Source: Methanoculleus sp. 7T (GTDB lineage: Archaea; Halobacteriota; Methanomicrobia; Methanomicrobiales; Methanoculleaceae). From it: DNA of 64,000 nt. The notes below the pieces were generated by a model, which worked only from the letters and a program-made list of their open reading frames with translations, was not told the origin of the DNA and searched no databases. A program made the translations under genes and the position numbers. Each line of letters opens with the position of its first letter. The first letter of the stretch is position 1. Location: the NCBI RefSeq assembly GCF_023195915.1, contig NZ_JALPRP010000001.1, forward strand, positions 1,240,001 to 1,304,000, in the 5' to 3' direction. Below are positions 26,323 to 30,531 of the stretch, piece by piece.

Positions 26323-26739
26323 ATGGTTGCCGCTATGAATGAGAGGGAGCCAGGCGAGGGGCGCGGCCGCCGTGGGCGGGGCCGGCCCAGGGTCCGCAGA
26401 AGGATCAGGGAGGGGGCCGCCTTCCGCTGTTTCGGCCCCCTCTGCGGGAGGCCGGGCGAGGTCGTCCTCCTTCTCCCCGAGGAGGTCGAGGCCCTGCGGC
26501 TCGTCGACCTTGCGGGGCTCGAACAGGAAGAGGCCGCCCAGGTCCTCGGGGTTTCGCGGAAGACCCTCTGGCGCGACCTCCACGAAGCACGGGGGAAGGT
26601 CGCCGACGCCCTGGTGCACGGGAAGATGATCCGGATCGCCGGGTGCGGTCGGCGGCGGGGGGAGGGGTGCCCTGAAGATGAGGATGCCTCTTCCGACCCC
26701 GCCTCGCCGGGCCGCTCCCGGACTCGGGTTCCGGAATGA
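26323..26739 (+). CDS. DUF134/UPF0251 DNA-binding protein
   Basis: 138 residues. A basic arm (RGRRGRGRPRVRRRIRE) and a Cys pair (CFGPLC) precede a sigma70-region-4-like HTH: LPEEVEALRLVDLAGLEQEE followed by AAQVLGVSRKTLWRDL. This is the UPF0251 layout. The C-terminus is Cys/Arg-rich (GCGRRRGEGC). ATG 26323 or 26335 could start it. It is a likely regulator of the adjacent DUF5320 gene, by position only. Confidence 0.82.
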   Translation: MVAAMNEREPGEGRGRRGRGRPRVRRRIREGAAFRCFGPLCGRPGEVVLLLPEEVEALRLVDLAGLEQEEAAQVLGVSRKTLWRDLHEARGKVADALVHGKMIRIAGCGRRRGEGCPEDEDASSDPASPGRSRTRVPE

Positions 26740-26823
26740 CGAGGTGCTTCCATCGGCCCATGGCCGTACCGCCACGCTCGGATATAAGGATCCGGGCCGG
26801 GTAAAAACAAAAAATGGATCCGG

Positions 26824-28050
26824 TCAGGGAAGCCGGACAACGGCCCGGTTTTCAGTGAGGTTGTTCTCCTGCGACACCGGTTGCGGAGAGAGCGTGACGA
26901 AATCGCCAAATTCCGACCATAATCGGTTTATCGGGTAGTCGGGCCCGGACGTCTTCTCTTCTGCAAGCGCCTGGTCGACCCCGCCGATCACGTCGAATGA
27001 ACGGTACACATGCGGATAGCCCTCGGCGCCGAGGAAGGAAGGAGTATCCGTCACGACCTGGAAGTGGAGGTGCGGGAGATCGGAGTTCCCGCTGTTCCCC
27101 ATCAGGCCGAGGACCTCTCCCTCCGTAACGGTGTCGCCGACCCCGACACGGATCGAGCCGGGGACCATATGGGCGTAGCAGGCATATTTTTGGTTCCCGA
27201 TATCGACGATGACGTAGTTTCCGGCCGCGGTTGCAACGGTCGCCGGCGGGGCGGAGTAGATGGTCTCAAGGTCGGGGAGCCCGTCCATGACGTCCACCAC
27301 CATCCCGTTGGCGACTGAGTAGATCTCTCTTCCATATCCGAGGAAGTTCTTTGCCGGCGTCACGTTCCCGGTGGCCGCCTGCCCGGTGACCGGGTCCAGG
27401 TATATCCAATCCTGTGCGTAGCGCTGGGGGACGCGGGTCGCTCCGTTCATCGTGATCTGGGTAAGGAAGTGGTGGGTTACGGGAGCCGTGGTCTCGATCG
27501 CCGTCCAGCCCGCGCCGCGCACCGGCGAACCGATGACCACCGGCGCAAGGTCGTTGCGCACCGTGACGTTGCCGCCGGTGAGCGTAACCGGCGCGAGCCC
27601 GCTCTCGGTCCGGTTCAGAGTGAGCCGATGGACGAGCCGGTCCGGTACGGCGTCCGGACCAACCTTGAACCAGAGGGAGATTCTTGGGACGGGTAGTTTC
27701 CCGGTACCGCTCTCGAGTTCTGCCGCCGTCGGCGGGGGGTCTGCGGCCGGGTGGTAGAGCGCGGCCAGCAACTCCCCATCAAGCGACCAGAGTATAGCCC
27801 CCGTGTCGGGGTCGATGACCTCGACCTTTTCCGGCACGAGCGTCCGGTTTCCTATCGGGGAGACCTCAAGTTCGTAGGCAAGGTTGACACCGTCCTGACT
27901 GGAGACCGGGATGGGCGGAAACGGGACGGTCATATTCACCGACGGGGCCGCAGGTGCCGGTTGCGGTTCCACTACGGTTTGCATACATCCGGCAGCAAGG
28001 ATCGCCGCCGTCACGATGGCGAGGATGAGGATCTGGCGAACGGCCGACAT
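26824..28050 (-). CDS. Lipoprotein with M23-peptidase-like fold
   Basis: 408 residues. A signal with lipobox LAAGC is followed by an N-terminal beta region and, in the last third, an M23-like domain: GMVVDVMDG, NYVIVDIG, YAHMVPGSI and the HLHFQV motif. The first zinc-ligand pair of canonical M23 enzymes (HxxxD) is not clear; only RYAQDW is in the expected place. Because this archaeon should lack murein, the domain may act on another polymer, a bacterial neighbour's wall, or be non-enzymatic. ATG 28050 is chosen for its signal peptide. Confidence 0.8.
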   Translation of the reverse strand: MSAVRQILILAIVTAAILAAGCMQTVVEPQPAPAAPSVNMTVPFPPIPVSSQDGVNLAYELEVSPIGNRTLVPEKVEVIDPDTGAILWSLDGELLAALYHPAADPPPTAAELESGTGKLPVPRISLWFKVGPDAVPDRLVHRLTLNRTESGLAPVTLTGGNVTVRNDLAPVVIGSPVRGAGWTAIETTAPVTHHFLTQITMNGATRVPQRYAQDWIYLDPVTGQAATGNVTPAKNFLGYGREIYSVANGMVVDVMDGLPDLETIYSAPPATVATAAGNYVIVDIGNQKYACYAHMVPGSIRVGVGDTVTEGEVLGLMGNSGNSDLPHLHFQVVTDTPSFLGAEGYPHVYRSFDVIGGVDQALAEEKTSGPDYPINRLWSEFGDFVTLSPQPVSQENNLTENRAVVRLP

Positions 28051-28111
28051 GATAACAGCATTCGGAGAATTGTTGCGGTAGATGATAAACAGGAAGGGTT
28101 TGTGATCACAG

Positions 28112-28146
28112 TAGCGGAAGTCCCACGGCTTTCTTCGTGGGAATAG
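28112..28146 (+). mobile_element. Possible IS200/IS605-type right-end hairpin
   Basis: GAAGTCCCACGGCTTTCTTCGTGGGAAT-like sequence forms a 7-bp TCCCACG/CGTGGGA stem, resembling the hairpin next to tnpB ends in IS200/IS605 elements. No complete tnpB is adjacent, so this would be a remnant. Confidence 0.35.
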
Positions 28147-28592
28147 TCGCGCCGCAGGCTTGTGAAGATGAGTAGTACGGGTGCCCGGGTGGGAACGCCA
28201 TGAGCAACCCATTGTCGTCGTGTTGATGTCGCGGTCGTGGTGGACCCCGCAATCGGACGGATCCATCCTCTACCCGAGAGGGTGAGATCTTGGCTGATGT
28301 TGTCCATACTGGCTACATTTTGTTGAGAAGGAAGTGATCTCTTGCTCTTGAGGATCGTCCGCCCAGACTACTAGCACTGCCAACAGAGTAATTAGTGAAT
28401 GGCTAAAGCGGTTTCAGCCGCTCCGCCTTGTAGCTCCTCATCCCTGCCTGTGTGCCCCGTACTGCTACCTATCCTGACAATCCTGGTGTTATTTGTTCCA
28501 TGCAATTTGAGAAGTACCTAATGGAGCAGATAGAGGGAAAATGGAAGAAAACTCTGGCTGGGTGAAGGTCGAAGAGCGGATGGATTGACTAA
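28147..28592. other. Gap of about 450 bases without a supported gene
   Basis: No long frame or RNA gene is evident. Two tiny frames start at 28521 and 28541 just ahead of the 28593 gene; they are 14-15 codons and may be chance. The region may hold decayed insertion-element sequence. Confidence 0.4.
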
Positions 28593-28886
28593 ATGCTGTT
28601 GCCGGTCCGGGTCTCACCACACCGCCGCGTGTGGGCTGATGTTTCGTTCAGATATGAGAAGCACATCTATGCCGGGTCCACAGAGGATGTTGCCAGGTAT
28701 ACCCTCAAATATGGCCGCGTGAACGGCGTCTATGAGGACGAGGAGATCGCGCATGATCTCAAGCGCACCGTTGCCGGGATGCTCCGGCGTGGGGTGCCGC
28801 GTCAGCAGGTTGTAGAAGAGACCTCCGCGCTGTACGGCATCCCGGAAGAGTGTGTGGAAGAGGTAGTGGCCGCGGTCCCGGCGTGA
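28593..28886 (+). CDS. Hypothetical protein, 97 residues
   Basis: A soluble, mixed-charge protein with predicted helices (VARYTLKYGRVNG, EIAHDLKRTVAGMLRRGVPRQQVVEE and IPEECVEEVVAAV). The C-terminal half looks like a three-helix bundle. No domain is recognised. GC content is host-like, whereas the downstream PIN gene is AT-rich, so this gene may mark the last host-type locus before the island. Confidence 0.55.
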   Translation: MLLPVRVSPHRRVWADVSFRYEKHIYAGSTEDVARYTLKYGRVNGVYEDEEIAHDLKRTVAGMLRRGVPRQQVVEETSALYGIPEECVEEVVAAVPA

Positions 28887-29033
28887 GGCTTTCAGCCCTA
28901 TCCCAATACTTATTTAGATTGACCGGTAGCGCATTCAAATCCTTCGTACATATTATTCATGTCAATTGAGTTTCAAGCCATCTCAAAATCTATATTGCTT
29001 TCTTCTACATAATGTTGCTATGTTGAGGTTATC

Positions 29034-29918
29034 ATGAAGATCTTTATTGACACCAATATTTTCTTAGGCTTCTACCAGGCCAATTTTGATCACCTCCAAA
29101 AAATTATGGATCTATCTAACATTAAGGGAAAGATAGTTTTAGTAGACCACTGTTGGAATGAGTACCTTCGAAATCGGTCCAATATTTTTGAGATTCTCTT
29201 GAAAGAAATTAAAAATCATAAGCCAAAAAATATCCACACTACATCCTTTATTTCTAGTTTTGATGAATATAAGTCTGCAGATGACTTAAATAAGCAAACT
29301 GGAAGTGCTATTGATACTTTAATCAAAAAAGTCGAGGCAATCAAAAGTAAACCCGATGATGATATTGTGTATCGCCAGATACTTAGTTTTTACAATGATC
29401 CTGGTATCACGATATTTAAGATAACACCGAGTATTTTTGATCGAGCAAAGGACAGGAAATACTTAGGAAATCCCCCATTTTCAAAGGATAAGTATTCAAT
29501 CGGAGATGAAATTATTTGGGAAACACTATTGGAAAATATAGATGATGACTTAATCATTGTAAGTCGAGATAAGACATTCAATACTCATCGTGAGTTTTTA
29601 GAGCATGAATTTTCGAATAAGAAGCAAAAAAATCTTTTTGTCTTTGAAAAATTAAAAGATGTGTTCGTGAAACTTGGAAAGGAAGCTCCAAGAGACTTAG
29701 TTGAGTTTGAGACGACCGAAAAAGAACCTGTGGTTTACCGGACAGAATCGGGTTCTGTGGAGACTGGGGATTTGGTCCAAGTTGCAACCTCCTCAAATGT
29801 GTTTAGTGCATCAGTACCCACGTTTAACACTGACCTCATCTGTTTCCGATGTGGCCATGTGCATGATCGATACACCCCTAGATGCATAAAGTGCGGATAC
29901 TGGATGTCGTTTGACTAA
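29034..29918 (+). CDS. PIN-domain nuclease-like protein with C-terminal zinc ribbon
   Basis: 294 residues. The N-terminus MKIFIDTNIFLGFYQ carries the first PIN acidic residue, and acidic residues follow in DDDIVYRQ, GDEIIWETLL and DDDLIIVSRDKTF, the DUF4935-like PIN arrangement. After a linker, the C-terminus has CFRCGHVH...CIKCGYW, a zinc ribbon. PIN enzymes cut RNA. The gene is markedly AT-rich (Lys/Asn/Ile-rich protein) compared with its surroundings, a strong sign of horizontal transfer. No antitoxin overlaps it; the RHH gene 360 bases on is a candidate partner. Confidence 0.85.
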   Translation: MKIFIDTNIFLGFYQANFDHLQKIMDLSNIKGKIVLVDHCWNEYLRNRSNIFEILLKEIKNHKPKNIHTTSFISSFDEYKSADDLNKQTGSAIDTLIKKVEAIKSKPDDDIVYRQILSFYNDPGITIFKITPSIFDRAKDRKYLGNPPFSKDKYSIGDEIIWETLLENIDDDLIIVSRDKTFNTHREFLEHEFSNKKQKNLFVFEKLKDVFVKLGKEAPRDLVEFETTEKEPVVYRTESGSVETGDLVQVATSSNVFSASVPTFNTDLICFRCGHVHDRYTPRCIKCGYWMSFD

Positions 29919-30090
29919 ACAAAGGACAACTCCGCAGATAATTTTCTTTAAATCGCTTGGTTGTCTCCATTTTAGCAATCTCTCCGAAGCGCGAGGTGAA
30001 GCTCCCTGCCAACAGGCCCTTCCCGTGCGGCTAACCCTTCTGATCGCCCCGCCCGACTCTGGCACCCTCTCATGCATAACCCCCCGCAAA

Positions 30091-30116
30091 GTTAGGCTAT
30101 CCGAAACTGTCCGCAC
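30091..30116 (+). repeat. 26-bp imperfect direct repeat, copy 1
   Basis: GTTAGGCTATCCGAAACTGT followed by CCGCAC; matches copy 2 at 22 of 26 positions. Confidence 0.6.
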
Positions 30117-30202
30117 ACTTTCGGCCGTCTGAAACATCACGGCGTCCCCCGAAAACGCCCCCGTTTTTGGTTACCACCTCTTTAAGACCCGTCCCACAGA
30201 GA

Positions 30203-30228
30203 GTTAGGATACCCGAAACTGTGCGGAC
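30203..30228 (+). repeat. 26-bp imperfect direct repeat, copy 2
   Basis: GTTAGGATACCCGAAACTGT followed by GCGGAC. It runs into the paired TGCGGACAG sites just ahead of the RHH gene. Confidence 0.6.
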
Positions 30229-30250
30229 AGATACAGCACTATGCGGACAG
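30222..30250 (+). promoter_or_regulatory. Paired TGCGGACAG sites, candidate operator
   Basis: Two identical nonamers start exactly 20 bases apart (30222 and 30242), about two helical turns, and end 27 bases before the RHH gene. The inverted core TGTCCGCA occurs at 30108-30115. This spacing suits a dimeric RHH repressor. Confidence 0.45.
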
Positions 30251-30277
30251 TAGAAAAGAAACAGGAGAAATGAGAAA

Positions 30278-30475
30278 ATGGCAAAAGAAAAGGAATACGA
30301 GCGAAAGAGGAGAAGATTGAACATTACGATCTCGGATCAGGCGCATGATTTTCTGAAAAACCGGGTTACGAATGCATCCCGTTTCATAGAACAACTAATA
30401 GTAAGTGCTGAAAACGAAATCCAAGCAACGATTGTTACGATTTCCCCGATTAAAGGTGGGCCCGGAGGGATTTGA
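30278..30475 (+). CDS. Ribbon-helix-helix-type DNA-binding protein
   Basis: 65 residues. RRRLNITISDQAHDFLKNRV forms a basic ribbon and first helix, and NASRFIEQLIVSAENEI the second helix, as in small RHH repressors and antitoxins. The last residues (GGPGGI) are encoded by the 3' end of the tRNA gene on the opposite strand, so the stop codon is supplied by the tRNA. The gene lies in the AT-rich island and repeated sites precede it. Confidence 0.65.
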   Translation: MAKEKEYERKRRRLNITISDQAHDFLKNRVTNASRFIEQLIVSAENEIQATIVTISPIKGGPGGI

Positions 30476-30531
30476 ACCCACGACCGCCCGGTTATGAGCC
30501 GGGCGCTCTGACCGGACTAAGCTACGGGCCC
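30457..30531 (-). tRNA. tRNA with CAT anticodon (elongator Met or Ile2)
   Basis: On the minus strand a full cloverleaf reads: acceptor GGGCCCG/CGGGCCC, D-arm TAGCTTAGTCCGGTCAGAGC, anticodon arm CCGGCTCATAACCGG with loop CTCATAA, and T-arm GTGGGTTCAAATCCCTC. The anticodon is CAT; whether it is elongator Met or the agmatidine-modified Ile tRNA cannot be settled without modification data, although the G-C rich acceptor resembles archaeal Ile2. CCA is not fully encoded. The 3' end faces the AT-rich island. Confidence 0.92.

Follow-up and report, generated by a model that had tools for sequence, protein, structure and literature searches.

Partitioned integrases of the SSV type (type I, or suicidal, as in SSV1 and SSV2, pTN3 and pT26-2) carry the att site within int, target tRNA genes and are split into int(N) and int(C) (PMC8371274). 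Within one such family many different tRNAs may serve as targets, the catalytic residues follow the pattern R...KXXR...Y, and the N-terminus of the SSV2 integrase has a role in multimerisation (PMC8371274). The words 'ribbon', 'arm-type' and 'arm sites' are absent from the available text of that review. In integrases of the lambda family, the N-terminal domain binds arm sites, and in KplE1 the IntS sites overlap the int promoter and Int represses its own gene (PMC2951348). SSV1 also encodes F55, a small RHH repressor acting on 11-nt sites repeated in promoters, its own promoter included (PMC9608457). The tRNA-integrated provirus ArcVen-P3 of Archaeoglobus veneficus has a split SSV-like integrase together with CopG-like RHH proteins (PMC4158269). 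The descriptions given here follow the available text of each paper.

The locus considered here lies in a window of 64,000 nucleotides, the whole stretch of DNA analysed, from the 2.6-Mb genome of Methanoculleus sp. 7T. The repeats that precede an RHH gene in this window probably form the array bound by the RHH domain at the N-terminus of a partitioned SSV-type integrase, whose int(C) was later lost. The RHH–integrase family shares with the SSV-type enzymes the att site inside int, the tRNA target, the split gene and the PF16795 catalytic domain, and differs from them, as reviewed, in its N-terminal RHH domain and in the phased array ahead of the start codon. No report of an N-terminal RHH domain in archaeal integrases was found in the literature searched, which lay largely outside subscription journals and included word checks of the available text of PMC8371274 and PMC6972569. 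Like F55, this is a small RHH protein with repeated promoter sites, its binding to them being putative; unlike F55, which is encoded by a separate gene and represses several transcripts, the RHH here is part of the integrase, and in the four elements scanned the box clusters stand only ahead of int. The available text on ArcVen-P3, by contrast, presents its RHH proteins as small and separate (PMC4158269).

The window gene is an ORF of 65 amino acids on the + strand (30278..30475), comprising a CcdA-like RHH domain and a tail read from the antisense strand of tRNA-Met. This tRNA (CAT; 30455..30531, - strand), the attachment site, is convergent with the ORF and overlaps it, and it supplies the stop codon, the TGA at 30473-30475 sitting in the T loop. 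Taken alone, the window protein has no Pfam match; only the MazE model comes up, with an E-value (0.009) below cut-off. The wider family was represented by 69 sequences (model A6), selected from 105 homologous matches as those without a stop and of at least 48 amino acids, with the window sequence replacing its own copy, L010. The CcdA profile matches 19 of the 69 at E ≤ 0.1 (best 2.4e-6), the MazE antitoxin model 18 and RHH_3 four, and the match to a solved CcdA has an E-value of 0.017. It is on these profiles, of modest strength, that the RHH assignment rests. An AF2 monomer predicted from a shallow alignment of seven sequences is a single long helix, for which Foldseek returned no match. 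CcdA itself, the best profile match of the family, carries a toxin-binding tail, in contrast to the proteins described here, whose C-terminus is read from att and tRNA and which have no paired toxin in the family. The region matched by the RHH model is free of stops in 87 of the 105 matches, and dN/dS is below 1 in all 12 pairs of copies without a nearby int(C), ranging from 0.14 to 0.67. Both observations fit a functional protein, but may reflect life in intact elements.

Most of the relatives of this gene that were found end at a tRNA. Matches resembling int(N) (model A3, E ≤ 1e-6) were found in 58 of the 232 genomes of the order, and seven of the nine named loci from the RHH search belong to Methanoculleus. 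Among the 105 homologous matches (unique matches of at least 25 bits in fetched loci, the frameshifted L219 gene being counted twice), 80 end between -10 and 60 bp from the 3' end of a convergent tRNA, a share that may run high because the seeds of model A3, which was trimmed of tRNA-derived residues, were themselves mostly tRNA-adjacent. Ten isotypes are represented beside the matches: Met, Val, Asn, Phe, Thr, Ala, Ile, Lys, Arg and Glu. The other 25 matches comprise 11 that lie 61-160 bp from a tRNA and are mostly partial, three that are kilobases from a tRNA but directly ahead of a fragment of a tRNA 3' half, and 11 without a called tRNA in the vicinity (contig ends, decayed copies and the unsplit gene described below). 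Outside the order, seven loci found with model A6 were examined, and six of these lie beside a tRNA, in two cases in sense orientation; in L316 and L321, which come from a different family of the phylum, the RHH ORF enters tRNA-Leu in the sense direction, a feature not shared by the other tRNA-adjacent loci. In L070 (7216-11301) there are three direct copies of the tRNA-Asn 3' half, the last two enclosing only about 570 bp with the array and RHH. A pattern-seeded scan of IMG/VR and searches of phages and plasmids yielded no RHH relatives, and two queries of IMG/VR yielded no relatives of the integrase.

The nature of the gene becomes apparent when the two ends of related elements are joined. 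Joining attR to attL yields a single ORF in five of the eight relative pairs that have both RHH and int(C), the order being RHH, a linker encoded by att and tRNA, and an archaeal integrase domain. Four of the restored ORFs have 468, 371, 482 and 440 codons, and PF16795 matches the catalytic part in L238, L229, L241 and L253 at E-values from 3.6e-18 to 3.4e-35; the fifth ORF, from G058, has 454 codons and an identical att of 45 bp. In the three pairs that do not rejoin (G064, G051 and G154), the RHH side is already interrupted or out of frame. In three elements of 16-18 kb, which have att repeats of 40-52 bp, and in the 2.5-kb L229, an ORF matching PF16795 lies just inside attL, and PHROGs returned integrase for the three that were scanned. 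Repeats of 44-52 bp duplicating the 3' half of the tRNA were identified in L238, L253, L229, L247, L228, L070, L079 and L073, of which L228 and L247 have no restorable integrase; in many other loci no att repeat was found. In the A5 integrase model R122, R198 and Y231 are invariant, their roles having been assigned by eye, and the K of KXXR is present in three of the five sequences.

An unsplit RHH–integrase also exists. A 425-codon ORF in the sister genome G019 (L210) scores 43 bits with the RHH model and matches PF16795 at E 1.5e-21. A 394-codon ORF of G154 links a truncated RHH (12.3 bits) to a truncated integrase across the att region; G056 is arranged likewise, with one stop, and is cut off where its contig ends. 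Matches to int(C) at E ≤ 1e-10 occur in 20 of the 232 genomes of the order, a figure obtained with a different model and threshold from that for int(N). In the genome of the window no int(C) was matched by model A5 at E ≤ 1e-10, and none was matched in the window by an earlier model. Because relatives rejoin, an unsplit gene exists and this genome lacks an int(C) match, the window gene is, as judged from comparison of sequences, an orphan int(N): it corresponds to the N-terminal part of a partitioned ('suicidal') integrase of the SSV type. The first-pass annotation had spoken simply of an RHH gene, a description that agrees with the RHH-type profile; what does not hold is the implied free-standing regulator, given the 80 of 105 matches at tRNAs, the five of eight pairs that rejoin and the unsplit ORF.

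Other identities were considered for the conserved unit. A MITE or IS end was rejected, as the unit ended at the tRNA in the loci first compared and the upstream ORFs, inspected by eye, were without transposase. An integrase-free cargo cassette was favoured at first, the PF00589 matches listed not lying beside RHH loci on inspection by eye, and was dropped once PF16795 integrases appeared in att-bounded elements.

The repeats themselves lie ahead of the start codon of the window gene. Two 26-bp blocks (30091-30116 and 30203-30228) are identical at 22 of 26 positions, and the nonamer TGCGGACAG occurs at 30222-30230 and again at 30242-30250, a spacing of 20 bp, with an inverted copy at 30107-30115; in each of these respects, including the inverted upstream core, the first-pass annotation proved accurate. 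Its two nonamers are better described as an array of three contiguous decamers (30220-30249), each box being 10 bp with the consensus TGTNNNNACA. Box 1 (TGTGCGGACA) is found at 30220..30229, box 2 (GATACAGCAC) at 30230..30239 and box 3 (TATGCGGACA) at 30240..30249, all on the + strand; in the window box 3 has one mismatch and box 2 is degenerate, the latter fitting the consensus in other subfamilies. The upstream block (30091..30124, - strand) holds an inverted box, read as TGTCCGCACA on the + strand at 30108-30117, and includes the first arm of an 18-nt inverted repeat whose arms are at 30107-30124 and 30213-30230. A conserved, TATA-like GTTACCACCTCTTTAAGACC stretch (30170..30189, + strand), to which a promoter role may be ascribed, is found ahead of several homologues, and a GGAG resembling a Shine–Dalgarno sequence (30264..30267, + strand) precedes the ATG at 30278. 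In dinucleotide shuffles of the region 30091-30277, a 26-mer pair as good was found in 0 of 200 and identical 9-mers at exactly 20 bp in 0 of 2000, while some repeated 9-mer with free spacing arose in 98 of 2000, so that the phasing counts for more than repetition alone. The nonamer is not enriched in the 64-kb window, where 17 matches with at most one mismatch compare with 18.2 expected.

Arrays of this kind are found ahead of many, but not all, of the homologous genes. Of 40 family genomes, 16 contain DNA related to the operator and 25 a related protein. The best triple of TGTNNNNACA boxes is significant (letter-shuffle p ≤ 0.01) in 53 of the 101 homologues with at least 130 bp of upstream DNA (four of the 105 were left out, and the L219 gene is again counted twice). 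In 49 of the 101 the significant array lies at -63..-46, including all five restored elements (L142, L180, L198, L229 and L181, the genes of L238, L241, L253, L229 and the G058 pair, respectively); 52 loci have no significant array at that position, and upstream of the unsplit integrase L210 the sequence differs. Conservation ahead of homologous RHH genes, on which the operator reading had been staked, was therefore found, both in the 16 of 40 family genomes and at a near-fixed offset in the 49 of 101 homologues.

The boxes vary in a manner that appears to be related to the protein. Within a locus, box 1 and box 3 agree on average at 2.79 of the four centre bases; between loci the figure is 1.64, and none of 5000 permutations was as high as the value within loci. 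The centre of box 3 is self-complementary at 2.47 of 4 positions, where about 1 is expected by chance. Good outer pairs were available at 45 of the 101 loci, or 43 after duplicates were collapsed. In this sample the distance between box centres correlates with the distance between residues 13, 15 and 17 of the strand, taken as the contact positions by analogy with Arc and CcdA, when the rest of the protein is controlled (partial r 0.228, 5 of 2000 permutations); random column triples reached this value in 3 of 500 trials. The signal is present but diffuse and weak, since position 13 alone (0.297), position 23 outside the strand (0.266) and the non-contact positions 14, 16 and 18 (0.169) correlate also. 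That box core and strand residues change partly in step favours the binding of the array by the RHH protein. When four restored elements were scanned with their own box at up to one mismatch, sites were found only ahead of int, apart from one isolated site with one mismatch; a global immunity repressor was rejected on these grounds.

Since the gene is read as int(N) and not as an autonomous regulator, the boxes may be understood as the operator of the int promoter, as arm-type recombination sites, or as both; in the likeliest case the integrase binds the array through its RHH domain and uses it as its own operator and/or arm-type site. The cooperative operator proposed in the first-pass annotation thus survives in its form, that of phased, near-palindromic boxes ahead of the RHH gene and conserved, but not as simply the operator of a free repressor. 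An element carrying int would have recombined at the 3' end of tRNA-Met. As att lies within int, integration would have split the gene and left int(N), with RHH and the array, at the tRNA; int(C) and most of the element would have been lost later, to judge from the relatives. In the intact element, RHH dimers would probably sit on the three tandem decamers, which follow the TATA-like box and precede the start codon. Bound Int would then repress int once Int had accumulated, and/or the array would serve as an arm-type site, roughly 200-240 bp away from the att core, that holds Int while the intasome assembles. KplE1 IntS provides a precedent for operator and arm roles in one site, the arm function being putative here; the lambda arm-binding domain is not known to be an RHH.

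The explanation that competes best with a functional array is that it is now an inert relic, bound by nothing today and persisting through recent insertion or transfer. This is a serious contender, to which somewhat less weight is given than would make it probable. It is consistent with the failure of int(C) models to match in the genome (A5, E ≤ 1e-10) or the window (earlier model), with the decay of the second genomic copy described below, and with the degenerate box 2 and the mismatch in box 3, but the RHH frame, the ribosome-binding site and the outer boxes look intact and dN/dS is below 1. That the array was purely an arm-type recombination site in the manner of lambda Int, without a role in transcription, is a rather doubtful alternative. 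It would account for tandem direct decamers ahead of the gene for the N-terminal domain of an integrase, with a nearly constant distance to the att core; however, the array follows the TATA-like box, precedes the start codon and in many loci nearly abuts the ribosome-binding site, which is the geometry of autorepression, and in KplE1 both roles coincide (PMC2951348, available text).

It is very unlikely that the gene encodes an independent RHH repressor or antitoxin that regulates itself through a cooperative operator, its position at the tRNA being incidental or a later re-use. The phased boxes do precede the RHH ORF, divergent toxin-like genes lie upstream of RHH in ten relatives, and the dN/dS values in 12 of 12 pairs and the 87 stop-free matches of 105 would suit such a protein. 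Against this, the ORF reaches the tRNA without meeting a stop codon and enters different tRNAs in different frames, it rejoins int(C) in five of eight pairs, and no second box cluster was found in the four elements scanned. The dN/dS values, moreover, may predate capture: the RHH–tRNA unit of the window (30092-30531) is 95% identical to that of L066 (14756-15195), as against 81-87% for the other aligned segments, with one exception, a 64-bp second tRNA fragment of 91% identity. This suggests a recent transfer or gene conversion of the unit between the two species, and domestication as an explanation of the dN/dS values was set aside because selection may predate capture of a unit that looks recently transferred. 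Chance repetition, for which the 98 shuffles with some repeated 9-mer might be cited, is practically negligible in view of the 0 of 2000 and 0 of 200 for the phased 9-mers and the 26-mer pair and the conserved near-fixed offset, which already refutes it.

With the window gene read as an orphan int(N), one class of small RHH ORFs, those at the ends of tRNAs (80 of 105), finds an explanation as integrase fragments, and a group of suicidal archaeal integrases gains a concrete DNA target for its N-terminal domain. The 43 non-redundant natural pairs of strand and box provide material for a recognition rule, and the combination of RHH, decamer array and tRNA may serve as a marker for decayed insertions. 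A wider proposal, speculative and unlikely to hold as a whole, would be that in an RHH clade of suicidal integrases the RHH is a combined arm-binding and self-repressing module in which few strand residues set the box sequence. The orphan int(N) proteins encoded at tRNA genes would then still be active as guards, occupying the boxes of incoming related elements and silencing or poisoning the integrases of these, and the strand and box types would amount to immunity groups.

The DNA adjoining the window gene bears the marks of an insertion. In three of the 29 loci compared around tRNA-Met of other genomes (L086, L087 and L095) the site is empty, the homologue of window positions 26678-26684 lying only 80-91 bp from the tRNA 3' end; in the remaining loci there is other DNA at that place or the sequence ends too early. 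About 3.7 kb is therefore inserted in the window, the DNA missing from the three relatives corresponding to 26690..30454 (left edge approximate). Neither attL nor an att repeat could be recognised in the window. A copy of 17-24 bp of the tRNA 3' end is present in L066 and L067 at the position of the empty site, some 2.5 kb from the tRNA, and on this placement is taken to be an attL remnant. The inserted region encodes as cargo a PIN_12-domain protein (29034..29918, + strand) whose C-terminal end resembles a zinc ribbon, below cut-off. It also contains ORF97 (28593..28886, + strand), a putative gene without assigned function, Pfam match above cut-off or PHROG, which recurs near int(N) in related elements; its family has matches in 21 of 40 family genomes and occurs in 12 distinct int(N) loci, often decayed. 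A second array with an RHH copy is found in the same genome beside tRNA-Val (L009 4440-4663; G000:C1:1410416-1410665), where the three decamers look intact and the reading frame is broken.

Cargo varies between int(N) sites. L238 (1675-17980), L253 (1100-17799) and L241 (200-17865, reverse) appear to be proviruses of 16-18 kb, possibly representing an undescribed group of archaeal viruses; L253 encodes a HerA/terminase-like ATPase, and L253 and L241 share, as judged by eye, a repeat-rich 'SLPKI' protein and another protein of 329 aa. A toxin-like gene divergent from int(N) is common to ten loci (L066, L068, L030, L046, L142 and others), its copy in L238 matching ParE at E 0.0018, below cut-off. 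A gene that is possibly an antitoxin is common to five loci, four of them among these ten, and L069 has a HicA-like gene (E 4.1e-4, below cut-off).
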